Virus record (IMG/VR): IMGVR_UViG_3300004806_000026
Span: 1 to 63,555 of that record
Origin: a virus
Length of the DNA stretch: 63,555 bases
Direction: 5' to 3' (one strand)
The notes beneath the pieces are model-generated. The model saw only the letters and a program-made list of their open reading frames with translations. It had not been told where the DNA came from and searched no databases. The translations under genes and the position numbers were made by a program. This document shows positions 10,373 to 61,267 of the stretch, piece by piece (within the stretch, counting starts at the first letter, position 1; the number at the start of each line of letters is the position of its first letter).

Positions 10373-13300
10373 ATTCGCCGTCCATCTCTCTTTCGCTTTC
10401 TAAGATTTCTTTGCGCATTCTAGGACTAAACCTAACCCCATGCACCATCTCTTTAGTCGCACGATCTTGAGCCTTCTTAGACTTAGCCAATATATCGCTG
10501 ATAGTACCGCCGTTAATACCAAGTCCAGGGTGTTTCTCACCCAACTTAAGTAGCGCATCTCTATCTGCGTTTGCGCCTTCAGTATCACCTTTTCGCATAG
10601 CAAGATAATAACGAGCCTTAAGTTTTGAAGCCTTGGTAGATATAGCTTTATCTATACCTTTTTCTTTGGCATTGATTTCTAACTGTCTTGTGTAATCGGC
10701 AGGGGCAAAACCAAATGATTGAGCCAGTGCATTCCATGCGCTAATCTCTCCGGTAATTGGATCACCACGAAGTGTATTTGCACCTTCAAAGAAATACCGA
10801 CCGCCTTTGAGTATGTTGCTTGGTAAAGAAGGTACTAAATCTTCTAAGCCACGTTCAACATTACCTTCCGATATTTTGCTCATACCTCGACCGATACGCT
10901 CACCAATACTAAGCACAGGGCCGCCTATAGCTTCAAGAATTTGATCTTTAAATGTTGTGCCGGATCCCCCTGCTTTGTTATCTCTAACAATAAGATCGCT
11001 TAAGCCAATACGACCGGCAATAGATAGGTTAGTAAAGTACTCTAGTGGACCTTTATATAAGAACTCACCCAAGTGCTTACGAGTAACTGTATCCAAGTCA
11101 TCGTCGTCATCATCACAGAATAATGAATAGACCATAGCCGCCGCACCAAACATTGGCAAGCCTTGAGCACCAGCCATTAAAGCAGTCATACCCACAATAC
11201 CGCCTAGCTGTCTCCATGCGGCTTTTTTCATTTCGGGGGTTTCGCCGTTGGTAGCTTCTCTAAAGGCTTTCATCAACATATAGTACTGAGTAACGCCGTA
11301 ACTCTTGTACATAAACATTAATTTACCAAGACCACTTTGTGCAATCCTTGGCGCCGCAGCTGCAGACGTACTACCGTTAAGTAATTGTGCTGTGTATACG
11401 GCATGGTTAGCTGCCTGTTCTTCAGCGGCTTCACCTGTAATACCTTGTTTATTAAGTTTAGCTAACTCCAAGTTATATGTCGCAAGCATAGTTACTTCAC
11501 GGTTCATACGTTCTGTCTGTGCAAACATCCAACCAGATGCGGCATTGAGTTTAGCAAGGAACCCTGTACGAGTATCCCCAGTCAACATTTCATGCAGTTG
11601 AGAACGACCGATCTGTCCACGCTCACCTAGTACTCTAATAAAGGTAGCATACTTTTTACCGATTTTAGAGTCAGGCGCATAGTTGGCGATTGACCTTTGT
11701 ACATCTAACTTAGTAGTCTTGCCTTCACCACCAAGCAGTTTAGTAGTTGCTTCTGAGCCGCTACCCATAAATAGTTTAGACGCTTCTCCAATAGCCGCCG
11801 CAATATTAGCATCTTTGTAATGTGCTTTTAGGTACGGAGCTACTATCATCGGAACTTGAGCTAAGTTAACTAAAGCTGAAGATACGTTAAAACCTAATGT
11901 GTAGTTATACACTGCTGAAGACAGTATGTTTCCTACGGAACTTTTCTTGGGGTTAAGAATATAATCCAAACGCTTATGGAATTCGTCGTAATATGCTTTC
12001 TCAAGTTGGTTATTTGTTGAACGTCCTTCAACTTTACCTCTACCTATGTCGTCCACAAAATCACGCATATTATCAACCACACCACTTATTTGTGGGTTGA
12101 ACTTCATACTAGCTACCTGATGGATAGTACTGCGTATCTTATTCTCAAATACGCCAATAGAATCTTCTAAGAAACCAGCACGGTTGTTACGTTTTTGAAA
12201 TGACTTAGCAAATGCAGTTTCGGGTAGCGTACTAATAAATAGACGCATAATTTCGTCAGTGTTCTTGTCGTACAGCGCACTGTCTTCTGTACTTAAATTC
12301 TTTGGTTTATTAGCTTCAAGACTTTGCAATACTTCATTAACAAACGAACCAGACGGCGCACGGCGGTAATCAACTTCCGCTAACTGCGAGTAAGGTCTTA
12401 TATCTGTACCACCTAGTTTTTGCAGTTCCTCTATTCGAGCAGAGCGTTCGAGTTCAGTTTTAAACGCTTCATAGCCAGGTTGCGGTCTGTCATACTTATC
12501 TTTATATTGATATGCCAACCAGTAATCACCTTCACGACCAAGCGCAAAGTAAGGATCAATCACACCCTGCTTACGAAGTTTATCCATGATCTCTGTTTTA
12601 AAAGAGAACTTATTTTCTTTGGATAGATTCATACTATCAATGCGTTCTTGGATGACATTGCCAATCTCTTCGTACATACCCTTGTACGCATCACGCATTG
12701 TTTTATAAAGATTTTGCCAAACGGGATTTAGTTTTTTATATTCGGCATTGAGCTTATCCCAATCTTCTTCTAACCTGTTACCACTACTGTCTAATTTATC
12801 TGCGTATTCAGAACGAGGTTTTGTAGGATCAACCCCTGCAATAGTAGACTCATGTACAACAGTATTAAAACTATCTCTTTGCTCGGGTTTAGCTTTGATT
12901 GCTTTCTTAGCTTCCGCAACAACTGCATCAGCTTCGTTGTTTAATTTTTTCTTGTACCCATCTTTTTTATCTATCGTAGTGTTTAGCTTACTACCAAGAC
13001 CGTTTAAAAGAGGGTCGGCAATTTCGCCCATAGCGTGCATGGGTAAGAAAGCAAACGTGTTCGATCTAACTGTTGAGTTGCCATTTTTAATTAATTGACT
13101 TAACGCAGCTTTTTGTTTCAAGTCTATATTAGGAACGCTAGTAATTACTTTATCTATACGGCTAATAAATTGGTTTGTTTGTTCCGGTGTTTTAATAGCG
13201 TATAAAGACCCGGCATCTCTGTATGTAGGCGCAGGAGAAATAATAGTATCAATCAGTCTATCAGCCTGGTCAAATGCAGATTCAAGTTTCTTAGGCTCCA

Positions 13301-16300
13301 TACCAACCATACGGCGCAGGAAGTTACCAATGATACGCACGAACCGATCCCATGCAGAATGTTTTTGACCGTCTGGGTTAATAGACTTGAGCATTCCTCG
13401 GAATTCAGGATTTGCTTTAGCTTCGGCTACGAACTCTTGTAAGTTTGTAGATCCATATGCAGTTGGAATACTATCCTTTACTTTGTCGAATAGTTGTTGT
13501 AGCTGACGTGTTACTGGATGATTTGGGTCATCCAATACATGAGATGTTGCAGCGTGTCCTGATTCATGTAAAAGTACATGAGAGTTTAAGCCGGTTACAG
13601 AGTCAAGCTTAATCGTATTCGTTTTAGGATCAAACAGTCCTGCAACGGGTTTACCAGATTCATCTTTTAAGTTATCAACAACTTGTAGTTTAGTATCCGC
13701 GTTTACTTGGGCAAGTTGTGTTGCTAACTTAGATGTAAAACCATCTGACTGCGAGGCTAACAAGTTAAGGGCTGTCGTAAGATCACCATTCTCTAACGCA
13801 CTAATGATTACTGGATGCAGCATGTTGCTAAGCTTAGAAATAGCGTCTTGTCTTAAATTAAGACCTTCACGTTCGTCTTCCTGCCTTTGCAAGTAGTCAT
13901 CTACGGTTTCATCAGCACCCATGCCAAAGTAAACTCGGCCTAGCGTATCTACAATGTCTTGACTGTTTTTATTTACTTTCTCAAAGTATTTAAGCATATG
14001 GTCAAACTCTTTTACAGAGTCTTCGCTTAAATTAGAACGAATCCAGTCAGATGCAAGTTTAGCGTTTGCACCATTCATACCCTTAAAGAACTCGGCTTCA
14101 ACAAGCGATTCGCCAGTAGATCTAAATTGCGGAGTATCATTAACTAGATCAAAAGAAATATTAAATAGTCCATCAATGATGCGTGGCATTTTCTTAAAGT
14201 AAGTTTGCGCCGCACGTTCTGCAGGGGACTGTTCTTTTTTATTAAGTATTACACCTGCAACAGCAATATGATCATCGTCGTTTTTAACATCGTTTCTAAA
14301 GAAGTTTGTATACCCACGTTTAATAGTTTCGACTAAACCTTTGGGTGGTTTAGCATTTGGGTTAACGCTTTCTTTTTCTTCAATAGACTTTTCAATCTCA
14401 TCAAACGCACTAGACTTTATATCTTTAACAGCTCCACGAGCAGCTTGTTTTTCAGTCTTTGGGGCAGGGGTAGTCGTAGCAGTAGGCTTACTAGCTTTCT
14501 TTGCTGGTTTGGTTTTAGCTTCACCTTTAGGTTCCTCATCTAAATAAGCGTGTTCAGGAATCTCTGGTTCTTTAATTTCTGCAGGAGCTTCAGCTTTAAC
14601 TTCTTTTTTCTCTAATGTACTTGACTCATTAGCTTTTCGCTTTGCAGGTTTATTAGCAGGTGGCTCACTAGATACCACTGTTCCTGGTTTAGATTTTTCA
14701 ACTCCTCCGGCGGGTTTAGGTTCTGGCTTACTAGGTGTTGAAACGCTTGTTCCAGTTGCGGGAGTGACAGGTCTAGACCCAGTTCGTTTGGATGGTTCGG
14801 CACGTTCTGCTCCTTTTGCGATACCACCTTTAGGTCCAAAGAGTGGCTGTTGGGTTGCCAAGTTCCTAAACGCTTTCATTGCCACACCTTCAATTGCTTG
14901 CTTGGTGGACGCAGATAGGTTGGGGTTACTACGCACACTAACTAATACGTTTGCGACCTGTTGTTGGTGTTCAGGATTAGCTAAGTCTTTGTTAAGAAGT
15001 TGTTTGTAAAAACCAGATTGTTTAGTCAGGCCCGTACTATTTAAAGTATTGGCATCAAGCACAGTGCTTTCAGGTTGTGGTTCCGGCTCGGCTTCGGGTT
15101 CAACTTGTGCCGCACGCCGTTCTTGTTTGGTTGGATAGGGTACACCAGGCAGTTGTAGTTGTTTATATTCTCTCTGCCCTAATTTACCTGCCGGACCTTT
15201 TTCACCTTTTTCTTTGATGCCAGTGATTTCTGGTGTTAATTCGTTTTCAGGTGATGGAACTGTTTCAGGTGCTTCGTTCTTAGTTCTTTCTTCTTCCGCA
15301 AAAGCAGCTTTAACATCATTAGCGTGACCTATTAAACGTTTTTCAGTTTCAGTCAACTCTACATTAGCATAACCTGCATCACGCAACTTATCTTGGAATA
15401 GTTCGGCGGTATTAAGTAAATTTACATTCTCAAGCAATGGGTGCAATAAATCAAGGCGAGCCGCTTGTCTACGATCAATTTCACCTTTGGCTACTCGTGC
15501 ATCGGTTTCAGCAATAGCATCATTTAATTTAATTTGCGCTTCATCTTTTTTCTGTTGAATTGCATCTAATTGTGCTTGGTTTTCTGCAGCTACTTTTTGT
15601 TCTATAGCCACCTGCGGCCCAGTACGTGCGCCAGTTAAATCTAATTCTTGTTGTATAGGTTCAGCTTTGGGTTCTTCAAACGGCAACTCCATTTGTTGAG
15701 GTTGCGGTTCTTGTGTTTGTTCTTCTTGTATTGGCGCAAGTTGTTGTTCGCCAAGTTTAAAGTCGGGACGATATGCGTCCATAGCCGCTTGTTTTTTGGC
15801 TTCGCTTGCGGCTTGTTCTTGTTCGGCTTGATATTTTTCAACCGGAAATAGATCGGGTTGATACCCTCCAGGTGGTGGGGTGTATCCTAATTGGGGTGCA
15901 CCGGGAGGTTGTAATGCTTGTCTAGCTTGTTGTTTTGCTAATGCTTCTTGATCTTTACGATCTTGGATTTTTTGTTTGGTATCTGCAATCTTACGACTAG
16001 CTTCTACTGCAGCACCGGGAGCACCAAAGAACGTACCACCTACTGCACCTTTAACGGCAGAGGTAATAATGCTATCAATATTTTTAGTAGAGAAAAAGTC
16101 TTGTTTATCTCCCGCAATTTGAGATGCAAGAATTTGTAAAGCCTGTTGCCCGCTTTCAGTAAGAGATTCGCCACCCATTGTTTTAAGTAGCTCAACACCA
16201 AAAGCTTTCTTAAATGTGGGGGGTACGACAGTAGACTTCTCAAGCATACCTGCAGCAATACGTTTCTTACCCGCTTCACCTAATTGACTTAACATCTTTT

Positions 16301-17078
16301 CGGGTAAATATGTATCTAGTGCTGCAACCAGCGGACCAATTGTTAAAGCAATACCGGGGTGAAGTTCGCCTGTATCTTCATAGATACTTTGAAATACGTC
16401 AGGAACGTTAGTAGCTAAAGATGCGCCCCAAAGTCCAGTCTTAGAACCAATCTCTGCACCTTTTTTAGTTGCTGCCTGTCCAGCAGCATCAGCTGTAGTT
16501 CGTGCTAATAACCTATCAGCATATTCTTTACCGGCTTCTTCAGTCAAACCTTTTTTAGCTATAGTTTTAGCGGCTTGTTCTTTAACCGCTTTTTCTACGC
16601 CTTTTCTAGCGAGATATTTACCACCAATCTCACCAACCCCTGCGCCGCCAATAAAAGCTCCAATATCGGGAGCAAGTTCGCCAAGTGTTTCTGCGCCATA
16701 ACCTAATATGCTACCTGTTGGACCTGCTATATCTTTAACTGATTTATATGCAGTTGGGTTTTCTTCCTCTGCGGTTTGCATCCGTTGTTGGTATTCACCA
16801 AGCTTTTGCTTAGCGTATTCGTCTTTACCTAAGACAGATGCACCTAATGCCGGAAGCAATTCTGAAAATGTTCCTTTAGTACCTTCCCATCCACGTTTAG
16901 CGCCACCGGCAATAAGTTGCCCTATACCAAGTTCACGAGGGTCAGGTTGCCAATCCGCTTCTTGTTGCTTAGTCATAGCCGCTTGTTGCATAGCGGTAGC
17001 ACGAGCCATAATTTCATCTCTTGGCATAGAGTCAGGCATCATTACATCGCCGACCCCCGGTATAGTTACCCGTGGCAT
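10371..17078 (-). CDS. Giant polyvalent ejection-type virion protein with metallopeptidase domain, 2,235 aa
   Basis: Last gene of the leftward virion block and by far the largest. The N-terminal ~350 residues contain Gly/Ala-rich hydrophobic helices. Residues ~360-930 are low-complexity (Glu/Pro/Lys/Gln) linker. A zinc-metallopeptidase motif HESGH sits at 1171-1175, with EFVAE near 1215-1219 as possible third ligand. The C-terminal part holds long helical regions, a membrane-like stretch before CDDDDDDLD, and a terminal domain resembling the large-polyvalent-protein (LPD38-type) modules. Such proteins are packaged in podovirus heads and injected with DNA. The peptidase could cut cell-wall or host targets. 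Domain names beyond the zinc motif are inference. Confidence 0.8.
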   Translation of the reverse strand: MPRVTIPGVGDVMMPDSMPRDEIMARATAMQQAAMTKQQEADWQPDPRELGIGQLIAGGAKRGWEGTKGTFSELLPALGASVLGKDEYAKQKLGEYQQRMQTAEEENPTAYKSVKDIAGPTGSILGYGAETLGELAPDIGAFIGGAGVGEIGGKYLARKGVEKAVKEQAAKTIAKKGLTEEAGKEYADRLLARTTADAAGQAATKKGAEIGSKTGLWGASLATNVPDVFQSIYEDTGELHPGIALTIGPLVAALDTYLPEKMLSQLGEAGKKRIAAGMLEKSTVVPPTFKKAFGVELLKTMGGESLTESGQQALQILASQIAGDKQDFFSTKNIDSIITSAVKGAVGGTFFGAPGAAVEASRKIADTKQKIQDRKDQEALAKQQARQALQPPGAPQLGYTPPPGGYQPDLFPVEKYQAEQEQAASEAKKQAAMDAYRPDFKLGEQQLAPIQEEQTQEPQPQQMELPFEEPKAEPIQQELDLTGARTGPQVAIEQKVAAENQAQLDAIQQKKDEAQIKLNDAIAETDARVAKGEIDRRQAARLDLLHPLLENVNLLNTAELFQDKLRDAGYANVELTETEKRLIGHANDVKAAFAEEERTKNEAPETVPSPENELTPEITGIKEKGEKGPAGKLGQREYKQLQLPGVPYPTKQERRAAQVEPEAEPEPQPESTVLDANTLNSTGLTKQSGFYKQLLNKDLANPEHQQQVANVLVSVRSNPNLSASTKQAIEGVAMKAFRNLATQQPLFGPKGGIAKGAERAEPSKRTGSRPVTPATGTSVSTPSKPEPKPAGGVEKSKPGTVVSSEPPANKPAKRKANESSTLEKKEVKAEAPAEIKEPEIPEHAYLDEEPKGEAKTKPAKKASKPTATTTPAPKTEKQAARGAVKDIKSSAFDEIEKSIEEKESVNPNAKPPKGLVETIKRGYTNFFRNDVKNDDDHIAVAGVILNKKEQSPAERAAQTYFKKMPRIIDGLFNISFDLVNDTPQFRSTGESLVEAEFFKGMNGANAKLASDWIRSNLSEDSVKEFDHMLKYFEKVNKNSQDIVDTLGRVYFGMGADETVDDYLQRQEDEREGLNLRQDAISKLSNMLHPVIISALENGDLTTALNLLASQSDGFTSKLATQLAQVNADTKLQVVDNLKDESGKPVAGLFDPKTNTIKLDSVTGLNSHVLLHESGHAATSHVLDDPNHPVTRQLQQLFDKVKDSIPTAYGSTNLQEFVAEAKANPEFRGMLKSINPDGQKHSAWDRFVRIIGNFLRRMVGMEPKKLESAFDQADRLIDTIISPAPTYRDAGSLYAIKTPEQTNQFISRIDKVITSVPNIDLKQKAALSQLIKNGNSTVRSNTFAFLPMHAMGEIADPLLNGLGSKLNTTIDKKDGYKKKLNNEADAVVAEAKKAIKAKPEQRDSFNTVVHESTIAGVDPTKPRSEYADKLDSSGNRLEEDWDKLNAEYKKLNPVWQNLYKTMRDAYKGMYEEIGNVIQERIDSMNLSKENKFSFKTEIMDKLRKQGVIDPYFALGREGDYWLAYQYKDKYDRPQPGYEAFKTELERSARIEELQKLGGTDIRPYSQLAEVDYRRAPSGSFVNEVLQSLEANKPKNLSTEDSALYDKNTDEIMRLFISTLPETAFAKSFQKRNNRAGFLEDSIGVFENKIRSTIHQVASMKFNPQISGVVDNMRDFVDDIGRGKVEGRSTNNQLEKAYYDEFHKRLDYILNPKKSSVGNILSSAVYNYTLGFNVSSALVNLAQVPMIVAPYLKAHYKDANIAAAIGEASKLFMGSGSEATTKLLGGEGKTTKLDVQRSIANYAPDSKIGKKYATFIRVLGERGQIGRSQLHEMLTGDTRTGFLAKLNAASGWMFAQTERMNREVTMLATYNLELAKLNKQGITGEAAEEQAANHAVYTAQLLNGSTSAAAAPRIAQSGLGKLMFMYKSYGVTQYYMLMKAFREATNGETPEMKKAAWRQLGGIVGMTALMAGAQGLPMFGAAAMVYSLFCDDDDDDLDTVTRKHLGEFLYKGPLEYFTNLSIAGRIGLSDLIVRDNKAGGSGTTFKDQILEAIGGPVLSIGERIGRGMSKISEGNVERGLEDLVPSLPSNILKGGRYFFEGANTLRGDPITGEISAWNALAQSFGFAPADYTRQLEINAKEKGIDKAISTKASKLKARYYLAMRKGDTEGANADRDALLKLGEKHPGLGINGGTISDILAKSKKAQDRATKEMVHGVRFSPRMRKEILESEREMDGE

Positions 17079-30432: not shown

Positions 30433-30627
30433 TTAATTCCCTGTAGGTTGGTTAAGTTCAATGTATCGCAGTAATACCACGACCACGGAAATTATAATGC
30501 CCACTAACATCTGGTGAACAGGAGTCAGCGGAAAGACAAATAAGAAACCCTGCATCACGGACAGCACCGCAATAAACAACGCCCAAAGAACGTGCTTGTC
30601 TTTTAATAGTGTGGTGAGTTGGTTCAT
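30433..30627 (-). CDS. Small two-TM protein (holin-like), 64 aa
   Basis: Two hydrophobic helices (VLWALFIAVLSVMQGFLFVF and MLVGIIISVVVVLLRYI) with a short loop and charged ends, the plan of class II holins. It lies among tail fibre genes, away from the endolysin, so it may instead be an antiholin or an unrelated membrane peptide. The other holin candidate is next to the spanins. Confidence 0.6.
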   Translation of the reverse strand: MNQLTTLLKDKHVLWALFIAVLSVMQGFLFVFPLTPVHQMLVGIIISVVVVLLRYIELNQPTGN

Positions 30628-30869
30628 GGTTTAGCTTGTTGAGCTTGGTAAGCTGATATTACTTCTTGTGTCCATACTGCCGCACTGATTGCGGGTACGG
30701 GTGCTGGATCTGTTGCCGCCGCAGTATCCCCTGGGTGTCTAACCCAACGGCTAAAGTTTCTTGCAATCTCAACACCGTCTTTGGTGATGATCTCTGCTTG
30801 ACGTACCTGGATAGATCCGTCTTCTAAAACTTCTGTTTTGTCGATTGTTGTGCGTGATGATAATGTCAT
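30624..30869 (-). CDS. Fibre-partner small protein, copy 2, 81 aa
   Basis: Paralogue of the 31,435 gene: both share TIDKTEVLEDG/IIDKTEVLEDG, IQVRQAEIITKDGVEIARNF and RWVRHPGDTAA, with diverged C-termini. The unit follows a tail fibre both times, so it likely assists fibre folding or attachment. The family is common in phage tail regions but has no proven function. Confidence 0.75.
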   Translation of the reverse strand: MTLSSRTTIDKTEVLEDGSIQVRQAEIITKDGVEIARNFSRWVRHPGDTAAATDPAPVPAISAAVWTQEVISAYQAQQAKP

Positions 30870-31434: not shown

Positions 31435-31695
31435 TTAAACTCCTATAGGTCTTTGTGCCGCTTGTGCCGCCTGATAAGCTGAGACTACTTCGGATGTCCA
31501 TACTGCACTAGCTATTGCAGGTACTGGAGCAGGATCAGATTGAGCAGCAGTGTCACCGGGGTGACGTACCCAACGATGAAAGTTTCTTGCAATCTCAACA
31601 CCATCTTTGGTAATGATTTCTGCTTGGCGTACTTGAATAGTGCCGTCTTCTAGCACTTCTGTTTTGTCGATAATTGTGTTTGATGCGAGTGTCAT
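31435..31695 (-). CDS. Fibre-partner small protein, copy 1, 86 aa
   Basis: Close paralogue of the 81 aa protein at 30,624, with long identical blocks (DKTEVLEDG, QVRQAEIITKDGVEIARNF, RWVRHPGDTAA). It sits straight after the 31,705 fibre, in the same order as copy 2. A fibre assembly helper is the best guess from position. Confidence 0.75.
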   Translation of the reverse strand: MTLASNTIIDKTEVLEDGTIQVRQAEIITKDGVEIARNFHRWVRHPGDTAAQSDPAPVPAIASAVWTSEVVSAYQAAQAAQRPIGV

Positions 31696-36372: not shown

Positions 36373-36650
36373 GCCATTGGTCCTCTTGCAATTCTACCTT
36401 TTGTAGCCGCGCCGTTACCACGAGTTTCTATCCCAGTGGATTTAGGACCATTTGTAATGTTGCCTAAACTTACGCGTCTTGCGGGCATGCCCCCAGGAGT
36501 AGACTCGTCTGCACGCATTGTATTTGGGTCAGTAGCATAATGAACAGCCTCTTGTCCATTAATAACATTACCTTTCATGTTATGTGCTTGCGCATATAAC
36601 GAAGCTGGACCTACTTCTTTGCCGCCTTTTTTCATGCTGAATTTAGCCAT
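36369..36650 (-). CDS. Small Gly/Lys-rich KKGG protein, 93 aa
   Basis: Begins AKFSMKKGGKEVGPASLYAQAHNMKG and is basic and Gly-rich with PGGMPARRVSLGN. The KKGGxxxGPxxLYA patch recurs in the 38,574 product. No known fold. It belongs to a cluster of small basic virion-block proteins with the KKGG/AEGG motif. I infer a structural or DNA-condensing role from charge and place. Confidence 0.65.
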   Translation of the reverse strand: MAKFSMKKGGKEVGPASLYAQAHNMKGNVINGQEAVHYATDPNTMRADESTPGGMPARRVSLGNITNGPKSTGIETRGNGAATKGRIARGPMA

Positions 36651-36886
36651 TATTTGCCCCTTGAAGAAGACTTCTGGTTAGTAACACGAGCCATATTACG
36701 ACCCATGCTTCTAAGATTAGACTGAGTTACACCACCTTTAGCCATTTTCTTTGTAGGCATACCGCCTTTTTTAAGGACGATTTTAGTGTGCTTACCAGGA
36801 TGTTCTTGAGCATCGTGCTCTTTAAAAGCTTTTTTGATCATTGCTTTATCTTGAGCAATGTCGTTATCCATTTCTTTTTTAGCCAT
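36650..36886 (-). CDS. Small very basic KKGG protein, 78 aa
   Basis: Lys/Arg-rich with KIVLKKGGMPTKKMAKGGVTQSNL and SMGRNMARVTNQKSSSRGK. It shares the KKGG/KGG motif with its neighbours. The net positive charge suggests DNA contact or packing near the head, but this is inference. It overlaps the next gene by one base. Confidence 0.65.
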   Translation of the reverse strand: MAKKEMDNDIAQDKAMIKKAFKEHDAQEHPGKHTKIVLKKGGMPTKKMAKGGVTQSNLRSMGRNMARVTNQKSSSRGK

Positions 36887-39013: not shown

Positions 39014-39418
39014 TTAACAAAATTTACCACGGGTCTTGCCTTTTTGAGCAATACCATCTGCACGAGCTGAGGCTGTACCGCCAGAAGCCATCTTCTTAAC
39101 AGTCTTACCACCTTTTTTCATACCAGTAGTACTACCCGCCATTTTCTCTTCGATATCTCTAGTGTGCCCACGCTTTTGAAGTTTAGACTCACCAAATTTA
39201 CCATGCTTGTTAGATCCCTTTTCTACATCTTCCGACATACTGCGGGTACCCATTGTTTCTTTTGCTGCCATATTTCCACCTTTAGAAAATTTCTTGCCTT
39301 TGTCGGCTTGACTAAAATCTTCCCCAACATTTTTGGGGACTCCTACTTTCTTGGCGAACGCTGGGTTATGGGCCACCGCCTCCATGAAATTGTGCTGTTT
39401 TTTACTGCTACTTGGCAT
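39014..39418 (-). CDS. Basic KKGG protein, 134 aa
   Basis: Start placed at the ATG giving MPSSSKKQHNFMEAVAHNPA; a longer frame would extend into the upstream gene. KKVGVPKNVGEDFSQADKGKKFSKGG is a patch I know from other phage structural blocks. The C-terminus has MKKGGKTVKKMASGGTAS. Very rich in Lys and Gly. Likely a small virion or DNA-contact protein. Confidence 0.65.
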   Translation of the reverse strand: MPSSSKKQHNFMEAVAHNPAFAKKVGVPKNVGEDFSQADKGKKFSKGGNMAAKETMGTRSMSEDVEKGSNKHGKFGESKLQKRGHTRDIEEKMAGSTTGMKKGGKTVKKMASGGTASARADGIAQKGKTRGKFC

Positions 39419-39653
39419 TCTTAATCTCCATAAGCCTATCCAGTTTTTCGTCCAACCTATCAAGACGGTCCAAAACCCTAGTGATGTCTGCATGGACTTC
39501 TTGCTTTGTAACGTACTCTTTAGCAATCTCTTCTCTGGTTCTGTTAAGAAGGATGGTAACTCTTTGCAGTTCATTAAATTTCTCCTTAAGGAAAAACCCT
39601 ATGATCGCGACAAAAAGCGATAGTGCGGAGTTCCAAAGTATCATAACGTCCAT
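39408..39653 (-). CDS. Membrane-anchored coiled coil, 81 aa
   Basis: One N-terminal hydrophobic helix (ILWNSALSLFVAIIGFFL) is followed by a charged region (residues 25-80) with clear heptads, RVLDRLDRLDEKLDRLME. Similar short proteins occur in podovirus structural blocks. The shape suits an inner-membrane anchor for assembly or ejection. The 3' end overlaps the next gene by 11 bases. Confidence 0.7.
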   Translation of the reverse strand: MDVMILWNSALSLFVAIIGFFLKEKFNELQRVTILLNRTREEIAKEYVTKQEVHADITRVLDRLDRLDEKLDRLMEIKNAK

Positions 39654-42617: not shown

Positions 42618-43520
42618 TTAATATGAGCCATAAATACCAAGTGGATCAGAATAGCCAAAGCTATAACGCTCACGGGATTTATAACGAACGTTTCCAGTGT
42701 CAAAGTCACCATCCATGGAGTTTTGCAGCGGTGTACGAACGAAGTGCTTGAGACCGTTAGGTACATCAGTTGTCAAGAACCAAGCGTTAGGTGCTGTCAA
42801 GAAGTGGTTAATTGTGTAACCTTCTGGGACAGAACCGTTGTTCTTGATTGCGTTGATGTCGTTGTTGTTTGTACCAACACGGAGTTCTGTCTCGAGTAAA
42901 CGAGTTGCAACGAACTGGAGTGCTGGAGGAACAATCAACTTCTTAGGTTTAGCAGCGATCAAAAGTCCGCGCTCGTCTGTCCAAGCAGCGATTTGAATAA
43001 CAGCATTTTCAAGGGCTGTTTCGTTCAAGTCAGCAGCAGTAGAAGGAGTGTTGGAATTTGTACCACCGTTAATTAGCGGGTGAGCTGAGTTCAATAAAGA
43101 AACGCCATCACCGCCGGTATAAGCGCCGTTAAATGCGTTGTTCAATATAGCAGCAGCTTTCACTTGCTTGGTATATGCCATAGCGCGAGCCAAGCCCTTT
43201 GTATAACGTGCAGACAAAGAGTCATACAAGTTATCCTCAATCGCCTCTTCTGTTAAGGAGAAGCCAAGAGCAATAGTCTCGTGGTTATAGCGAGCTGTCC
43301 ATGCTTCTTGCGCATTGTCATAAGCGATGGCATTGCCCTCGGCCTTAACAGGTGCTGCTGAGAATCCAGACAGTTTTGTTTCTTCTTCGAATGAACGCTC
43401 AGAGGTCTCTGTTTCATAGATCTCTTTGTGCTCTTCGCCGTATCTTGCATACTCTAATCCGAACAATGCGTTCAGTCCAGGGAGCAACTCTTTCAATAGT
43501 TGTGCGCGTGAAATAGCCAT
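42618..43520 (-). CDS. Major capsid protein, 300 aa
   Basis: Position after scaffold, presence of a strong terminator, and sequence fit the HK97-fold major capsid of podoviruses. It has NALFGLEYARYGEEHKEIYETETSERSFEEE at the front, TARYNHETIALGFSLTEEAIEDN, NNAFNGAYTGGDGVSLLN, and the end RYSFGYSDPLGIYGSY. Several hundred copies should form the shell. The C-terminal motif recurs in the 60,812 gene of the right arm. Confidence 0.85.
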   Translation of the reverse strand: MAISRAQLLKELLPGLNALFGLEYARYGEEHKEIYETETSERSFEEETKLSGFSAAPVKAEGNAIAYDNAQEAWTARYNHETIALGFSLTEEAIEDNLYDSLSARYTKGLARAMAYTKQVKAAAILNNAFNGAYTGGDGVSLLNSAHPLINGGTNSNTPSTAADLNETALENAVIQIAAWTDERGLLIAAKPKKLIVPPALQFVATRLLETELRVGTNNNDINAIKNNGSVPEGYTINHFLTAPNAWFLTTDVPNGLKHFVRTPLQNSMDGDFDTGNVRYKSRERYSFGYSDPLGIYGSY

Positions 43521-43533
43521 TTTATGTTACTCC

Positions 43534-44370
43534 TTAAACAGCGGTTGCAGTGTAGTACTCATGTATACCGAAGTTAAGCTTAACAAGCACTTCAGGATAA
43601 TTTGTAAACACAATAGTTGATGCGGAAGGAATAGCGGTTATGCTACCCGGTACTGCTGGAGCCACGTTCAAAGTTCCAGATGTTGCGCCAGAAGCAATCG
43701 CTGCTGTAACAAAAGAACCTGTCTCGATAAGCTGTCCGTTGGATGCAACATAAGCTACGTCAGCACCTTGCAACACGTTACCGTTAGGTCCGGTTGTCAT
43801 GGTAATAGTAGTAGAACTTGAAGATCCAGTTGCTGAATAACTGTAAGCTGTATCACGAACGATATCAACAACGCGCACAGGGAATGTGCTTGTAGTCAAA
43901 GTTGCAGAGTACAGTAATGCGTTAGCAGAGTCACCAGTATTGACGTTACCAGTATTGTTAATCATCTGGTAGTTTTGACCAATCATGGGGATGCTTGCTG
44001 ATGCAACAGTAGTTCCAGATGAGCAAACAACAGCTTTGAAAACTGTGTCAGGATCATCACAAACAACCGCTAATGCGTCACCAGCTAAAGTGCTTGCGGG
44101 CCAGTATTGGCTAAAACGCTTTTGCTTAGTAACTGGGTCTGTATAGTTACAGCCAAGGAAAATACCAACCATTCCGGATGCTCCGCCGCCAGTAGAAACT
44201 GATTGACGGTTTACAAAACCTTGGGTCAAGTTAACGAAATCGCCGTAGAAAATATTAGTAGCGTAGCCGTACTGGATAGGCAACTGACGTGTGCTTCCAG
44301 AAAAGACTTGTCCACCAATAAGATTTACAGGCTTTAGGCCATATGGGGCCGATACTGTAGGATATGCCAT
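43534..44370 (-). CDS. Head decoration-like structural protein, 278 aa
   Basis: Begins AYPTVSAPYGLKPVNLIGGQVFSGSTRQLPI and carries FLGCNYTDPVTKQKRFSQYWP, then a long Ser/Thr-rich beta segment. I know this type as a virion protein just before the capsid in podoviruses. It likely coats or stabilises the shell. No catalytic motif. Confidence 0.7.
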   Translation of the reverse strand: MAYPTVSAPYGLKPVNLIGGQVFSGSTRQLPIQYGYATNIFYGDFVNLTQGFVNRQSVSTGGGASGMVGIFLGCNYTDPVTKQKRFSQYWPASTLAGDALAVVCDDPDTVFKAVVCSSGTTVASASIPMIGQNYQMINNTGNVNTGDSANALLYSATLTTSTFPVRVVDIVRDTAYSYSATGSSSSTTITMTTGPNGNVLQGADVAYVASNGQLIETGSFVTAAIASGATSGTLNVAPAVPGSITAIPSASTIVFTNYPEVLVKLNFGIHEYYTATAV

Positions 44371-44386
44371 TTAAATCTCCAAAAGT

Positions 44387-44836
44387 TTAAGAACCTTTAC
44401 CAAAGCTTACTGCAGACTGACCTTCCTTAAAGATGGGCATCCTGCGATCACTTTGACGCATTAAATTATTGTCAACTGCTTCGGCATTCAATTTAGTTTG
44501 TTCTGCATAGTATGCAAACTGCTGCGTATCAAACTCAACTGGGCGCTTACATAGTAACAATCCGCCAATCTCAATTTCGTCTTTAAAACGGCTATTGGGA
44601 TCGACTAGCAGTCTAAATTTGGGTTGCTCTTCTAGCTTCACAGGCTCATAACCTTCACGGAATCTCGTACTGATATTTCGTGGGTCAGCTTGGTTGAGCA
44701 TTGATACCCTAATCCATTTGTAACCGTATCCAGGCTCTTTGTCTGGCTCTGGAAGAAGCTCCGGTGGCATCCACTGCTTGGGACGCTCAGTTAGAGCACG
44801 AGTTGTTAAATCACGGTTAAGTTTGTTTTCAGCCAT
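44387..44836 (-). CDS. Conserved head-cluster protein, 149 aa
   Basis: Starts LNRDLTTRALTERPKQWMPPELLPEPDKEPGY, and YKWIRVSMLNQADPRNISTRFREGYEPV follows. A conserved phage family between scaffold and capsid genes; function unknown, perhaps head assembly. It follows the scaffold gene with one base between. Confidence 0.65.
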   Translation of the reverse strand: MAENKLNRDLTTRALTERPKQWMPPELLPEPDKEPGYGYKWIRVSMLNQADPRNISTRFREGYEPVKLEEQPKFRLLVDPNSRFKDEIEIGGLLLCKRPVEFDTQQFAYYAEQTKLNAEAVDNNLMRQSDRRMPIFKEGQSAVSFGKGS

Positions 44837-44837
44837 G

Positions 44838-45800
44838 TTAGGCCTCCAGTTTTAAAAGTTCACGGACATATTGCTCATTAGTTAAACTCAGCTTTTTGGC
44901 TATCGCTTGCTGCGATTTTGTCAGTCTAACTTTTTGTTTAGATGCGGTCGATCTATTAACGGGCGCTACGACCGTTGAGGGTTTCTTAGAAACGTCTTTT
45001 CTAGGAGGTTCCTCTACTTCTACTTCATCCGAATCCTCAAAGTTTTCGGGGAATCTTCTTCGCATTGTTGCGTCTAACTCTGCGTAATACTTTTCAGAAC
45101 CAACAACTACACCTGTGCGCTTGAGCTTTTCATGTAACCCAAGAGCTGAAGCAGTCATTTCCTCGTCTTGTCCGAACCAAGGATTTTCTGCTTGCCATTG
45201 TGCAACTCTGTCGTCTACAGGTGCACGTTGTGGTTGCTGTTGTTGCGTTTGTACCTCAAATCTATCCTCTTGTAAAGAAGGTAACTTGAAATTGTTTGCT
45301 TTTTCTAATTCAAGTGTTGCTTTTGTGAGTGCTTGTTGGGCTTCTAGAACTTTTTCAGATTCGCCAGAATCATAGGCTTCTCTGTAAGCTTTTTTAGCCA
45401 TTTCAAGCTGCATTTCAGACGAAGATTTAACCGCTTGAACGTACTCTTTTTCACCCGTTGTAAGCATGTGTCTAATACGCTTATTCTCCTCATGGAGTTT
45501 TTGGGCGGCTTCTATAGCGGCTTGGCGTTCCCTTTCGGCGGCATCTGCACGTCTGCGTTCGTCATTCCAAACCCGCTTCATGCGGATTAGTTTGTCTTTA
45601 GCTTCTTTGCTGTATTTGTCAAGATCGTCTACTTCTACTTCTAGTTGTTTGACTTTCTCGGGATCTGCTGGTTTTCTATTACGGTCTTCCTCTGGGACAT
45701 CGTCTTCAATTTCTATTTCTAACTCTGTCTCTAGGGGTTTACCCGTAGCTTCTTCTTGATCTGGATCAGGAAATGCGTTCGGTGCTTCAAATGTTGCCAT
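44838..45800 (-). CDS. Scaffolding protein, 320 aa
   Basis: Highly charged, mostly helical, with long heptad regions (residues 50-170), an acidic front (LEIEIEDDVPEEDRNRKPAD) and a basic C-terminus (RLTKSQQAIAKKLSLTNEQYVRELLKLEA). This is the make-up of phage scaffolds, which direct capsid assembly through a basic helix-loop-helix end. Position just upstream of the capsid genes supports it. Confidence 0.8.
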   Translation of the reverse strand: MATFEAPNAFPDPDQEEATGKPLETELEIEIEDDVPEEDRNRKPADPEKVKQLEVEVDDLDKYSKEAKDKLIRMKRVWNDERRRADAAERERQAAIEAAQKLHEENKRIRHMLTTGEKEYVQAVKSSSEMQLEMAKKAYREAYDSGESEKVLEAQQALTKATLELEKANNFKLPSLQEDRFEVQTQQQQPQRAPVDDRVAQWQAENPWFGQDEEMTASALGLHEKLKRTGVVVGSEKYYAELDATMRRRFPENFEDSDEVEVEEPPRKDVSKKPSTVVAPVNRSTASKQKVRLTKSQQAIAKKLSLTNEQYVRELLKLEA

Positions 45801-45811: not shown

Positions 45812-46213
45812 TTATTTACGTCTAATACCACGAGGATCATCCACAATCCCTTCGACACTGTCGTCGTTGATCATGCGAAATTCCTTACCATGAATAATTA
45901 ATCTGCTACCAGAATTAGGTCTAACAAGGACAAAGTCGCCTTGTTTACACCATGGACCAGATGGGAATCTAGTCTTATCTTGATAACAATCAGGCCCCAA
46001 AGAAACTACGAAGAGAACTGTTGTAAGCAACTCCTCATAATGTATTGTGGTATCTGCTTTAATTATCCCGCTATCAAACTCTTCTTCAACGTCTGGAATT
46101 GCACAAAGAATGTGATATCCAGAGGGCTGTGGGAGTTGTTTGGCTTTTTCTTCGGCTGGTTTATTCAAGATTGCGCTTAAATCTACTGCCGCGTTTAGGT
46201 TAATATCATTCAC
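45812..46213 (-). CDS. GroES-like co-chaperonin, 133 aa
   Basis: The layout follows chaperonin-10: SGYHILCAIPDVEEEFDSGIIKAD, VLFVVSLGPDCY, SGPWCKQGDFVLVRPNSGSRL, and FRMINDDSVEGIV. The mobile-loop region (about 55-70) differs from host GroES. T4 gp31 and similar proteins replace GroES so GroEL can fold the capsid protein. Its place between portal and scaffold fits that role. Fold match is by pattern, so moderate certainty. Confidence 0.75.
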   Translation of the reverse strand: MNDINLNAAVDLSAILNKPAEEKAKQLPQPSGYHILCAIPDVEEEFDSGIIKADTTIHYEELLTTVLFVVSLGPDCYQDKTRFPSGPWCKQGDFVLVRPNSGSRLIIHGKEFRMINDDSVEGIVDDPRGIRRK

Positions 46214-54829: not shown

Positions 54830-54984
54830 CTAGCTTAACAGGACAAATCATACGTTACCAAAAAAGACGTTACTGTGTGATGTATTGGACAGACACAGAA
54901 GTACATCTTCAATCCATGGACGAGGATCGTCTATTCCTGACAATGCCGAGAACAAAGTTCGGAGGACTTGCCGATGGAGACTGA
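54826..54984 (+). CDS. Small beta-rich protein, 52 aa
   Basis: ATG overlaps the upstream stop (ATGA) and follows AGGAGG. SLTGQIIRYQKRRYCVMYWTD, then LQSMDEDRLFLTMPRTKFGG. Perhaps a small beta-barrel-like fold. Its end overlaps the next gene by 11 bases. Confidence 0.5.
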   Translation: MTSLTGQIIRYQKRRYCVMYWTDTEVHLQSMDEDRLFLTMPRTKFGGLADGD

Positions 54985-55495
54985 CGACAAAAACTGGCAT
55001 CAAATTGGCGAGGAGTACACGAAGGCATTAGCCGAGAGTATGAGACAAACAGTAAACATTTTAGGAGGACAAATCATGGGATATAGATCAGACGTAGCGT
55101 ATTCGATTCACTTCAAGACAAAGGACATACTCAATCAGTTCATTGCACTTGTCATGGTCAAGGGTGGTAACGAGGTCGAAGCACTTAAAGAGTGTGGGAT
55201 CGAGTGCAACGAGACAGATGGAGAGTTCAATGTTAACTTCACATGGGATGATGTTAAGTGGTATGAGTCTTACCCCGAGGTGCAAGCGCACACATGGCTC
55301 ATGGAGTTTGCCGTTGAGAGATTCCCCGAGGACTGTGGGTACGAGTATGTGCGGATAGGCGAGGAGTCTAACGACATAGAGGAACAACAAGGTGGTGCGA
55401 TGGATGCGTTTAACTATGGCATCCATATAAAAAGATCGTTTGATATTGATTTTAGCGATGATCCAATCGGGGATGATTTAGCTATCATACCTTAA
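54974..55495 (+). CDS. Unknown phage protein with a second internal start, 173 aa
   Basis: ATG at 54,974 sits eight bases after GGAGG. A second, stronger signal (AGGAGG, then ATG at 55,076) would make MGYRSDVAYSIHFKTKDIL..., the start I know from free-standing phage proteins of unknown role. So the first 34 residues may be a fused or separately made piece. Acidic body with WDDVKWYESYPEVQAHTWLMEF. Confidence 0.7.
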   Translation: METDDKNWHQIGEEYTKALAESMRQTVNILGGQIMGYRSDVAYSIHFKTKDILNQFIALVMVKGGNEVEALKECGIECNETDGEFNVNFTWDDVKWYESYPEVQAHTWLMEFAVERFPEDCGYEYVRIGEESNDIEEQQGGAMDAFNYGIHIKRSFDIDFSDDPIGDDLAIIP

Positions 55496-56537: not shown

Positions 56538-57662
56538 ATGGCTAAAGCTATTCAAACCGCAGAGCGTTTATTTGCACAAACAATTCCCGAGGTTGTCGAT
56601 TCAATATCAGCAACAGGACATCTACTAACCACATTGGTGGTAGGTCACATGGGTACAGGTAAATCATCAATCCTTAAGATGTTGGCTGAGAGATTACCTA
56701 ACCACATCCCGTGTTACTTCGACTGTACAACTAAAGACCTTGGTGACTTGATGATGCCTAAGATACTGGACATGGGTGACGATGCACAGTATGTACGATT
56801 CGTACCTAACGAGGAGATGGGTATACACCATGACAAACCAATCATCTTAATGATTGACGAGTTCGGCAAAGCCAATCCAAGTGTTAAGAACGGCATGATG
56901 CGTATGATGTTAGAACGTACCATGGGTACAAAGAAGTTACACAAAGATTCAATCATCTTTGCAACGACTAACTTAGGCGCAGAGGGCGTGGGTGATTTGC
57001 TTATGCCACACCACAGGAATCGTATCACTACGATACGTCTTAAGAAACCAACGGCAACTGAGTGGATCGACAACTTTGCAATCAATGCAGGAATACATCC
57101 GTCTCTTATTCTGTGGGTCAAGGAACACGGCGAACAACTATTCCAATCATTCGAGGACGTAGACAATCCCGAGGACGAGACAGGTGGCAACCCATACATC
57201 TATCATCCCAAGGCGCAACGCCCCGCATTTGTTACTCCAAGATCATTGGAACTGGCATCTCATTGGTTGTGGGCTAAAGATCGTATCAGCGAGAATTCTC
57301 TCAAGTCTAATCTCATTGGTACTATCGGTGATCGTGGTGGTATGGACTTAGGCGCATACATTCGTTTAGTAGATGATCTACCAAAACAAGAGGAGATCAA
57401 GCAAGACCCCAAGAACGCAAAGATACCGCAATCAGCATCAGCAACTTGTATGGTTGTGTATCGTGCACTTGCAACAATGGATAGATCATGGGTTGATGCG
57501 TGGTTGGAATATCTACCAAGGCTCGACAAAGCGGCGCAAGGTTTGTTTGCAATGCAGGTTCGTAATCCTAACTATAAGAAACAATCAGTAATAATGACAA
57601 ACGCCAAGTTTACCAAGTGGGCTATGGATAACAACTATATGTTTACTGCGGACAAAGCGTAA
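56538..57662 (+). CDS. MoxR-type AAA+ ATPase, 374 aa
   Basis: Walker A is GHMGTGKS (36-43) and Walker B IILMIDE (Asp107, Glu108). Sensor 1 is FATTN (Asn145), and DEFGKANPSVKNGMM and HRNRITTIRLKKP complete a MoxR-like core. MoxR ATPases remodel or activate protein complexes together with VWA partners, and the next gene encodes exactly such a partner. The leader is CAACAGGAGAA after a palindrome. Confidence 0.9.
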   Translation: MAKAIQTAERLFAQTIPEVVDSISATGHLLTTLVVGHMGTGKSSILKMLAERLPNHIPCYFDCTTKDLGDLMMPKILDMGDDAQYVRFVPNEEMGIHHDKPIILMIDEFGKANPSVKNGMMRMMLERTMGTKKLHKDSIIFATTNLGAEGVGDLLMPHHRNRITTIRLKKPTATEWIDNFAINAGIHPSLILWVKEHGEQLFQSFEDVDNPEDETGGNPYIYHPKAQRPAFVTPRSLELASHWLWAKDRISENSLKSNLIGTIGDRGGMDLGAYIRLVDDLPKQEEIKQDPKNAKIPQSASATCMVVYRALATMDRSWVDAWLEYLPRLDKAAQGLFAMQVRNPNYKKQSVIMTNAKFTKWAMDNNYMFTADKA

Positions 57663-57677
57663 CAACAACGAGGCGGA

Positions 57678-57695
57678 TGTAGTCGGTCGACTACA
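57678..57695. repeat. 18-bp palindrome, copy 8
   Basis: TGTAGTCGGTCGACTACA, extended by GGA/TCC to a 24-bp perfect-arm dyad, 27 bp before the VWA-gene ATG. Confidence 0.85.
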
Positions 57696-57722
57696 TCCAA
57701 ACAATTTAACAGGAGAAATAAT

Positions 57723-58895
57723 ATGTTAGCAATAGGCAAACCACTAACCGCACAAGAGCGGTTGTTCAAAGCTACGACTGCAATCGTAGGTCAAGATGAG
57801 TTCATTGCACTAGCCGGTGTACTTATGATCGGTGAGAAGAAGATAGTTGATGGACTACCGACTGCGTGTACCAATGGTCGTGACGAAGCGTATGGTCGTG
57901 AGTTCGTGGAATCATTAACCGATCCCGAATTTAGATTCTTAATACTACATGAGTGCTATCACAAAATGTATCGTCACTTAACCACATGGAAACATCTTTA
58001 TGAGGAAGATGCCCAACGTGCCAATCGTGCGTGTGACTATGCGATCAACATCCGACTAGCCGATACCGATCTAGGTAAGAAGGGTTGGATCAAGATGCCC
58101 GAGAACGGACTCATTGACGAAGCGTATCGTGGTATGGACGTACACGAAATCTATAAGTTGTTACCGCCTGGCAATGGTGGCAAGAGTAAGGGTGATGGCG
58201 AGGGTGACAGTCCATTCGATGATCACGACTGGGAAGGTGCACAGGAGATGAGCGAGGAGGAAGCCGAGGAGTTGAAGAAACAAATTGACGAAGCAATCCG
58301 TCAAGGCTCAACACTTGCATCCAAGACAGGGGCGAGAAGTTATGGTGACTTACTTAAGACCGAGCAAGACTGGCGTGAACTACTGCGTGAGTTTGTGTCA
58401 ACAACTTGTGCAGGACATGACTATTCAACATGGCGCAAACCTAATCGTAGATATGTGGGTATGGACATCATCATGCCAAGCGCAATCAGCGAGACACTAG
58501 GTGAGATCGTGGTAGCTATTGACACATCAGGATCTATCGGTCAACGTGAACTAGAAAAGTTCTTAACAGAAATCGTGGGTATCTCTGAACAAGTAAAGCC
58601 GAGCAAGGTTCGCATAATCTATTGGGACACTAGCGTGTGTTCGACTGAGGTGTATCTACAAGACGAGCTATACAAGATACCCGCATCTACTAAGCCCGAG
58701 GGTGGTGGTGGCACAGACGTGGCGTGTGTACCGATATACATGAACGAGCAAGGCATCAAGCCCGAGTGTGTGGTTGTGTTAACCGATGGTTACTTAGGTG
58801 GGACATGGGGTGTGTGGAACGTGCCAGTATTGTGGTGCATCATTGACAACCCAAGGACAACTGCAAGTGTTGGAACAACGATACATCTGGACTAA
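57723..58895 (+). CDS. DUF2201-type protein with HExxH and VWA-like MIDAS, 390 aa
   Basis: N-terminal zinc-metallopeptidase-like domain with ILHECYHKMYRH (His76, Glu77, His80), an acidic linker (SEEEAEELKKQIDE), and a C-terminal VWA-like domain with MIDAS residues VVAIDTSGSIG (Asp267, Ser269, Ser271), GGGGTDVA (Thr331) and VVLTDGYL (Asp355). Both active centres look intact. The family pairs with MoxR-type ATPases; here it directly follows one. It may be a phage-made protein-remodelling or proteolytic machine. Confidence 0.9.
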   Translation: MLAIGKPLTAQERLFKATTAIVGQDEFIALAGVLMIGEKKIVDGLPTACTNGRDEAYGREFVESLTDPEFRFLILHECYHKMYRHLTTWKHLYEEDAQRANRACDYAINIRLADTDLGKKGWIKMPENGLIDEAYRGMDVHEIYKLLPPGNGGKSKGDGEGDSPFDDHDWEGAQEMSEEEAEELKKQIDEAIRQGSTLASKTGARSYGDLLKTEQDWRELLREFVSTTCAGHDYSTWRKPNRRYVGMDIIMPSAISETLGEIVVAIDTSGSIGQRELEKFLTEIVGISEQVKPSKVRIIYWDTSVCSTEVYLQDELYKIPASTKPEGGGGTDVACVPIYMNEQGIKPECVVVLTDGYLGGTWGVWNVPVLWCIIDNPRTTASVGTTIHLD

Positions 58896-58913
58896 TGTAG
58901 TCGACCGACTACA
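58896..58913. repeat. 18-bp palindrome, copy 9
   Basis: TGTAGTCGACCGACTACA begins one base after the VWA gene's stop codon and lies 27 bp before the next ATG. Confidence 0.85.
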
Positions 58914-58940
58914 CATCAATAATTTAACAGGAGAATAACA

Positions 58941-59858: not shown

Positions 59859-60815
59859 ATGAGTATCCGATACATAAAAATATCTGAATTATTAACAGAT
59901 GAAGCTAAGTTTCAAACAGATATATACAAGGTACACGAGAGCGTAACGCCAGTAATAGATAAACTCTTTAATGGTTGGCACGTCAGCGAGGAAATGTATA
60001 ACTATATGACTGCGGTAAGTAAAGCAATGCCGAAAGCAAAGTTTGCCCCACATAGCGTGGAGTGGGTATCTATGCCCGGGGAGTCATACAGACACGTTAA
60101 CAAGTTTGCTGTATACATGGATGAGTTTCCCTATGCTTTAGGATTCATAGGTTATGGTGACTTTAGTGTTAATGGTAATAGCCGAGCGTACATGGTAGAG
60201 AGTCGCAAGATTAAGAACACTAAGTACTCATCACGTCGTGATCAGTATTATATGCAGATAACTACCGACTTGAAGAAGGCAACCAAGAACGCATCCACAT
60301 ACCTTACGCCTTATTCTATTAAGGAGTTAGCACAAGTTACTTATCGGTCGTTTTCTCGCAATGTCGAGAGGGTCAAAGAGGAAGTAGACGGACTACCCCA
60401 TAAGATCACAAGACCTATTCGTGACAAGACAAGCGCAATCATTGCAGAGATGAGGAATCTTATGGCACAGAACGTGACGTTCGTAACCGAGGAGTTCAAG
60501 ACCCTTGCCGAAGTATTGGTAGATACCCTTACCGAGCAGGAAGAAGAACGTAAGCGCCATGTGTTCGGTATGTATGTACGCATTAAGAACATAGGCACAG
60601 ATACTTATGCAGAGGTATACAAAGTGCATGATGTTAAGAATAACGCATTCAGCATTAAAGATGATGGTAGTCCACCGACTACAGTATTACTTTCAGATTT
60701 TGACGGCGACTTGGCAGGTAACATAGCTGTCCTTAATATGTTAAAAGATGAACAGTATGTACCACGAGTAGGTTACAAAGTAGATAGCAACACTTATTGG
60801 TTGGAGCGTGTATGA
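59859..60815 (+). CDS. Unknown phage protein, 318 aa
   Basis: Helical with charged stretches (NVERVKEEVDGLPHKITRPIRDK, AEVLVDTLTEQEEERKRHV) and a C-terminal beta part (MYVRIKNIGTDTYAEVYKVHDV). It holds a degenerate palindrome at 60,666 coding GSPPTT. Function unknown. Its stop overlaps the next start. Confidence 0.75.
   Translation: MSIRYIKISELLTDEAKFQTDIYKVHESVTPVIDKLFNGWHVSEEMYNYMTAVSKAMPKAKFAPHSVEWVSMPGESYRHVNKFAVYMDEFPYALGFIGYGDFSVNGNSRAYMVESRKIKNTKYSSRRDQYYMQITTDLKKATKNASTYLTPYSIKELAQVTYRSFSRNVERVKEEVDGLPHKITRPIRDKTSAIIAEMRNLMAQNVTFVTEEFKTLAEVLVDTLTEQEEERKRHVFGMYVRIKNIGTDTYAEVYKVHDVKNNAFSIKDDGSPPTTVLLSDFDGDLAGNIAVLNMLKDEQYVPRVGYKVDSNTYWLERV
60666..60683. repeat. Degenerate 18-bp palindrome inside a gene
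   Basis: GGTAGTCCACCGACTACA, two changes from the consensus, read in the same frame as copies 5 and 6 (Gly-Ser-Pro-Pro-Thr-Thr). Confidence 0.55.
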
Positions 60816-61267
60816 GCATGATATATAAAGCAAAGGATAGGTACAGCATGGGTTGGACTGACCCATTGGGTACTTACGGCAGTCTCGACAATTTCACGGA
60901 AAGGAATTGGGAAAAACTTAGTTTGCTTGAGAAGATCACATACGATATAGAGCGATGTGCGCCGGCTACGATAGGCAATACGTTCCTTAACATACGAAAA
61001 CAAGTTGTTAGTATGATTGCGGAGAAACCTATTTACAGAATTTTAATTAGAGGAGATAATTCTATTGAAACAGATTGCTATGATATGATAGACTTATTCA
61101 AACCTGAATTAGAAAAGGCATATTCTAGTATTGACGATTTACCTGAATGGGTGAAGGAACGACTAGCAGTCTTATCTATATTAAACCCCGACCAACGCAA
61201 CGAAGAAGTAGAGGGTGTAGGTAGACGAATAGCGAAGAACATCTATTGGGTGTACAAAGGAGAATAA
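60812..61267 (+). CDS. Unknown protein with a major-capsid-like N-terminal motif, 151 aa
   Basis: Start at the ATG overlapping the previous stop (ATGA). Residues 6-24 read KAKDRYSMGWTDPLGTYGS, closely matching the end of the major capsid protein (KSRERYSFGYSDPLGIYGS; 12 of 19 identical). The rest is helical with LPEWVKERLAVLSILNPD and IAKNIYWVYKGE. No other family recognised. The shared motif suggests binding to a partner the capsid tail also meets. Confidence 0.7.
   Translation: MSMIYKAKDRYSMGWTDPLGTYGSLDNFTERNWEKLSLLEKITYDIERCAPATIGNTFLNIRKQVVSMIAEKPIYRILIRGDNSIETDCYDMIDLFKPELEKAYSSIDDLPEWVKERLAVLSILNPDQRNEEVEGVGRRIAKNIYWVYKGE

Follow-up and report, generated by a model that had tools for sequence, protein, structure and literature searches.

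The window considered here is a stretch of 63,555 nucleotides of viral DNA (positions 1 to 63,555 of IMG/VR record IMGVR_UViG_3300004806_000026), in which a small protein of the right arm, P0001, shares a terminal peptide with the major capsid protein (MCP). The head block comprises TerL, portal, GroES, putative scaffold and MCP genes, while P0001 is encoded on the plus strand, in a block with genes of AAA+, DUF2201/VWA and, below cut-off, DUF3150-like type. The features discussed are the following, with the evidence for each in brackets.

60812-61267 (+): P0001, tagged protein, 151 residues (ATG at 60812, stop codon ending at 61267)
60821-60883 (+): N-terminal tag of P0001, residues 4-24, candidate copy of the strand region at the MCP C-terminus (profile, shuffles, model)
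60899-61264 (+): body of P0001 (Pfam, fold and within-record profile searches)
59859-60815 (+): upstream gene, C-terminus similar to that of P0001 (profile survey)
56538-58895 (+): AAA+ ATPase and DUF2201/VWA genes, in the same early block as P0001 (profiles)
54974-55495 (+): second window gene with an MCP copy (profile searches; internal in-frame ATG at 55076)
54992-55075 (+): copy of the spine helix, within the N-terminal extension of the 54974 gene (spine profile, E 1.9e-6)
45812-46213 (-): phage GroES co-chaperonin, adjoining the putative scaffold (phrog_3188, E 3.7e-9)
44838-45800 (-): putative scaffold, phrog_28737, function unknown (position between portal and MCP)
44847-44939 (-): putative scaffold, tail segment; small proteins of relatives carry copies of it (profile)
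42618-43520 (-): MCP, HK97-type fold, gpT-like, 300 residues (profiles, model, fold matches)
43410-43520 (-): MCP N-arm helix segment, copied in relatives; model helix 5-26 (profile, model)
43125-43235 (-): MCP spine helix segment, copied; model helix 99-127 (profile, model)
42624-42689 (-): MCP C-terminal segment, copied; model strands 278-290 and 296-299 (profile, model)

The start codon of P0001 overlaps the stop codon of the upstream gene in the sequence ATGA and is preceded by GGAG. The protein begins with MSMIYKAKDRYSMGWTDPLGTYGS, residues 6-24 being KAKDRYSMGWTDPLGTYGS. In the structure model, residues 1-29 have a pLDDT below 50 and secondary structure begins only at residue 25; the tag is thus predicted to be disordered and separate from the folded body. 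A Pfam search with the body gives no family above the cut-off and a fold search no significant match; since the best PDB match reaches only E 0.15, no family is assigned. Similarity to mycobacteriophage proteins is at E 0.4 or worse, and no record of a named phage matches P0001 along most of the protein. P0001 is not itself an MCP, as neither profiles, BLAST nor the model reveal a capsid fold beyond approximately residues 4-24. Over its last ∼45 residues it is similar to the C-terminal end of the upstream gene product (profile family 35, iE 1.5e-5), from which it follows that the tag is mounted on a partial paralogue of the end of that protein.

The donor is recognized by profile matches to Phage_capsid_4 (E 6e-14) and Mu-like gpT (E 2e-7). 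Its model (21 sequences, mean pLDDT 78) includes helices at residues 5-26 and 99-127, the second of them long, together with terminal strands at 278-290 and 296-299, and resembles HK97-type shells, with encapsulins among the best matches, one of them solved with a targeting peptide. The stretch of the C-terminus that aligns with the tag is KSRERYSFGYSDPLGIYGSY and the end sequence RYKSRERYSFGYSDPLGIYGSY. Residues E284, R285, Y286, G289, D292 and P293 are invariant in 21 MCP tails, and all are kept in the tag of the window except the glutamate, which is replaced by an aspartate. All copied MCP parts fall on secondary-structure elements of the model; in particular, the tail is predicted to form the closing strand region of the fold and not a loose end.

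The resemblance between tag and capsid end, 12 identities over 19 positions, had been noticed in a preliminary description and withstands statistical scrutiny. When the MCP tail is compared with the 85 further ORFs called in the window, 20,157 residues in all, P0001 provides the best 19-mer with 12 identities, while 200 shuffled tails reach at most 9. BLAST among the ORFs of the window gives the match an E-value of 2.7e-5, and a 22-column profile built from MCP tails, including that of the window but leaving out the P0001 tag, finds the tag at E 6.7e-11 in this record. As also claimed initially, the two genes lie in different blocks, on opposite strands and ∼17 kb apart, and BLAST and profile searches detect no MCP similarity in P0001 outside the tag. 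Codons for Arg, Tyr, Gly, Asp and Leu are unlike between tag and MCP tail, and across the collected sequences the same codon is used at 568 of 1271 identical residues between classes. Given these differences the likeness resides in the protein, and a duplication of the MCP gene at the DNA level is ruled out as the origin of the tag. The search for the motif proposed in the preliminary description indicates that it is not a generic fold element; the unrelated proteins that carry it are phage proteins. In one genome per species of bacteria and archaea (84,980 in all), the N-terminal pattern matches eight stretches, comprising four SufB-like proteins, two short frames and two stretches without an in-frame motif, none of them in a capsid context, so that no convincing host-encoded tag copy is found among them. 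The SufB-like proteins (L370, L374, L376 and L377), which we take to be actinobacterial SufB, carry GRY(D/E)YGWSDPD, which resembles the core motif and occurs in an unrelated setting. No PDB sequence matched the tag profile.

In other phage contigs, small early-block proteins of at least three unrelated families bear the MCP-tail tag, as do single cases. Carrier A consists of P0001-like proteins (9 distinct sequences), carrier B of a domain marked by the motif LW..RFG (15 sequences) and carrier C of phrog_15166 (7 sequences, assigned through the match of one member at E 6e-24); L309, L329 and L316 are single carriers. Three search patterns were used. The first was too loose, yielding among at least 120 matches listed 4 ORFs with an in-frame motif, one of them an MCP. 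The second gave, among the matches listed, at least 113 C-terminal and at least 10 other motif ORFs, the ten others listed including two copies of P0001 and a chance match (L215). The third retrieved 39 stretches, namely 36 N-terminal tags, one internal tag (L316, in record G069), one MCP (L328) and one unclear short ORF (L304), an N-terminal excess that is partly built in by the demand for a nearby ATG. Relatives of P0001 are present at 11 loci, two of them identical to it; the tag is kept in L004-L007, reduced in L008 and L011 and missing in L009, L010 and L012. Mean pairwise identity is 0.71-0.74 in the tag region versus 0.35 in the linker behind it for carrier A, 0.62-0.65 versus 0.19 for carrier B (the three single cases counted in) and 0.94-0.88 versus 0.59 for carrier C. 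A short terminal tag is therefore common to proteins with unrelated bodies, a trait of T4-type tags. The stretch behaves as the copied terminal capsid peptide that had been postulated, being portable, kept while the linker varies and predicted to be disordered. Tags follow the MCP of their own record only weakly (a mean of 11.0 identities versus 10.5; permutation p 0.05; 8 records).

The initial idea that a terminal capsid tag is copied holds for the MCP tail but proves too narrow, since this tail is one of four head-protein elements that are copied. At the level of sequence, these are shown here to be the N-arm helix, the spine helix and the C-terminal strand region of the MCP, together with the tail of the putative scaffold. 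Their carriers, on the same grounds, are unrelated small non-structural proteins of phages with this type of MCP. For example, three neighbouring small genes of record G017 match MCP residues 88-132, 1-32 and 278-298, respectively. A profile survey of 58 families over 766 ORFs of 12 records gives 18 short matches to the MCP family in non-MCP ORFs (iE up to 0.02) and three to the putative scaffold family, whose tail appears on three N-termini, while approximately one false match in total is expected at iE 0.02 over the 58 families. The MCP is the dominant donor of short segments. Short matches of other families, sorted by eye, look like divergent or partial homologues, and no copies of portal, terminase or tail proteins are recognizable in the 12 records. 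These records are the window and 11 others found through the MCP-tail tag; MCP-tail matches in this set are therefore expected, and only N-arm, spine and scaffold matches are independent.

As controls, 18 records were used that have the motif in the MCP and no tag according to the MCP-tail profile; they contain no N-arm helix, spine or scaffold-tail copies outside head genes. Spine copies outside the MCP occur in 11 of 24 tag records versus 0 of 18 controls (Fisher 8e-4), or 8 of 15 versus 0 of 18 after dereplication by eye, N-arm copies in 11 of 45 tag-set records versus 0 of 18 controls, and scaffold-tail copies in 4 of 24 versus 0 of 18 (Fisher 0.12); in these comparisons the effects of tag and lineage cannot be separated, since many controls belong to another MCP lineage, and the records include many fragments and some near-duplicates. 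Copies are mostly N-terminal, with C-terminal examples in the 10224 gene of G071 (N-arm) and the 6854 gene of G078 (spine), the latter on an end in which this protein differs from its orthologues in G004 and G074. In G071, G014, G017, G018 and G055, B proteins stand in tandem and carry different copies. In G079 the carrier differs from the B domain: a row of tiny proteins (L353, 13430-13998, minus strand) displays N-arm and spine copies followed by similar, HEVEVEFD-like acidic tails. Two candidates were dropped, a spine match in G004 (E 0.03, wrong frame) and an N-arm match of 18 residues in G031.

The window itself contains a second copy. The spine copy at 54992-55075 has an iE of 0.011 in the 58-family survey and 9 identities over 30 positions, which places it among the weakest by identity, the call being made from the spine profile. 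CGGAGG precedes the start of the 54974 gene and AGGAGG the in-frame ATG at 55076, so that long and short forms, with and without the spine copy, may be produced. This gene has no convincing family, its weak NCBIfam match being far below the cut-off. The gene at 44838-45800 is designated a putative scaffold by its position; the tail of the gene between portal and MCP is conserved. A link of the tags with a MoxR/VWA chaperone was considered and is not claimed: 10 of 15 tag records have the MoxR family of the window, against none of the 18 tag-less records, but AAA_5 is also found in controls G022, G035 and G042 and weakly in G043, and the two sets differ in lineage.

Several other features of these genomes deserve mention in their own right. 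The minus-strand gene at 10371-17078 encodes a 2235-residue DarB-like antirestriction protein (phrog_10089, E 1.7e-69), a type of large ejected protein. Small structural-block proteins (36650-36886 and 39014-39574, minus strand, and 44305-45265 in G004) have in relatives a C-terminal end of RADGIAQ.GKTKG type, another terminal peptide common to proteins of these phages. The genes at 30624-30869 and 31435-31695 (minus strand) are near-tandem duplicates with 85% identity. Finally, the plus-strand stretches 57598-57729 and 58798-58938 both read RLH.NNLTGE, ahead of the VWA gene and of the 58941 gene, which suggests a repeated upstream element.

From the sequence comparisons, the match from which this analysis started is confirmed as one case of a recurrent module in related phages, and its recurrence on unrelated proteins suggests a portable tag that either plugs into head assembly or fools a recognizer of capsids. 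The explanation we favour, tentatively, is that the N-terminal peptide of P0001, copied from a head-assembly protein, serves as a short, portable tag for docking. The copied elements would take part in the contacts between coat and scaffold that build the procapsid, and a protein wearing one of them would be pulled into the head as it grows. Most probably, early-block proteins would then co-assemble into procapsids and perhaps reach the next host in the manner of T4 internal proteins; in a close alternative, tag-bearing proteins would play a titrating role during infection. In P22, the scaffold tail is reported to bind coat N-arm residues 14, 15 and 18 together with R101, coat residues 79-127 being part of the P-domain (PMC9965877); R101 probably sits in the long P-domain helix. 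Cargo has been loaded into P22 by scaffold fusions (PMC9962691), and in T4 ten N-terminal residues are reported as sufficient to direct a protein into the head (PMC9026906). By analogy, three of the four copied elements would represent both sides of the coat-scaffold contact, which favours docking to head assembly. Against docking, the C-terminal strand of the MCP is modelled as a strand of the fold and not as a loose tail; sequence comparisons add that tags track their own MCP only weakly, that three relatives of P0001 lack the tag and that the tagged end of the G078 protein is unshared.

The main rival, rather unlikely in our view, is that small early proteins act as decoys, showing capsid peptides that occupy or mis-set a host sensor before the real capsid protein appears. 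Its rank stems from CapRel-SJ46, reported to contact the P-domain β-sheet and the spine helix of an HK97-type MCP (PMC9712102), which are two of the copied elements; staphylococcal Thoeris is also reported to sense capsid (PMC11312562), and Lit to be triggered by a 29-residue region of T4 gp23 (PMC3014915). The location of carrier genes among early genes, and tandem small proteins that share a carrier and each display a different element, would suit decoys as well. The scaffold tail is copied too, however, and this weighs against decoys. We know of no scaffold-sensing defence. Portal, terminase and tail proteins are also sensed by known defences, yet gave no recognizable copies, and capsid peptides usually activate such sensors. 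Four tagged or copy-bearing proteins tested belong to no PADLOC family (the one weak match among 8 proteins is on the AAA ATPase), and decoys matched to their own capsid would be expected to track it more than weakly (p 0.05). Regulation coupled to assembly, in which tagged proteins with a regulator-like domain would work on DNA or some other target until accumulating MCP and scaffold draw them off by the tags and thereby time the late phase, is unlikely. Tandem B paralogues with different tags and a weak winged-helix likeness of carrier B (APAF-1 WHD 0.011, PadR 0.058, Cdc6_C 0.16, TrmB 0.17; one member each of 14) point in this direction, but these matches are weak and single, one member matches LysM better (1e-4), PDB sequence matches are all at E 0.8 or above, nothing regulator-like is seen in carriers A and C, and G079 has tiny acidic-tailed proteins instead.

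It is improbable that the peptides recruit the folding factor of the MCP, either GroEL with the phage GroES or an EF-Tu-like factor as with the Gol peptide: the GroES gene of the window does adjoin the putative scaffold, but small soluble carriers would not need such help and a scaffold tail would be unexpected among the copies. Still less probable are functionless vestiges, fragments of head genes fused by recombination, or chance. One carrier family can indeed be tag-less, but the low proportion of shared codons means that these are not recent DNA copies, the peptide is kept while linkers diverge, and approximately one false match overall is expected versus 18 for the MCP alone. Seen more broadly, it is possible, though less than probable, that the array of head-protein peptides on small early proteins, often tandem paralogues on one common carrier, forms a dedicated system that reads or disguises the state of capsid assembly, either as decoys for capsid-sensing immunity or as a checkpoint of head assembly. 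A similarly guarded view may be taken of the displayed peptides as the conserved part, given that lineages use different carriers, the B domain or, in G079, the HEVEVEFD-type tail.

No description of capsid-protein copies on non-structural phage proteins was found in the titles and abstract beginnings listed by topical searches of an open library, and a literature search with the scaffold motif gave no match. Docking tags would amount to a natural code, made of capsid pieces, for loading an HK97-type capsid, and would show which early proteins travel with these phages to the next host; decoys would mark capsid surfaces read by host immunity. Either way, MCP and scaffold segments on non-head genes offer a sequence handle on the functions of many uncharacterized phage genes.

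Comparison with known systems brings out both likenesses and differences. The Gol region of T4 gp23 and the Gp57 trigger of CapRel are likewise short MCP segments recognized by host defence, but there the trigger is the capsid protein itself, no separate segment-bearing phage protein being described in the portions of these reports drawn on here. The capsid targeting sequences of T4 IPI-III are similar in being short N-terminal tags on small, otherwise different proteins, and have been proposed as a route for varied proteins into heads (PMC9026906). T4 tags are, however, processed after entry and their packaging is proven, whereas the tagged proteins described here are known from their genes, and as no prohead protease is recognized among the part of the head-block genes scanned, a T4-like tag removal is not seen. 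The tags described here are copied from the MCP and putative scaffold, whereas to our knowledge T4 targeting sequences are not copies of the coat protein. Encapsulin cargo-loading peptides are short and terminal and bind an HK97-type shell; compared by description, they bind the shell while the present tags copy it. The C-terminal helix-turn-helix of the P22 scaffold is alike in being both a coat-binding part and a loading tag (PMC9965877, PMC9962691), and whereas the P22 scaffold fusions are engineered, natural genes of relatives of this phage carry the scaffold-tail copy at their N-terminus.
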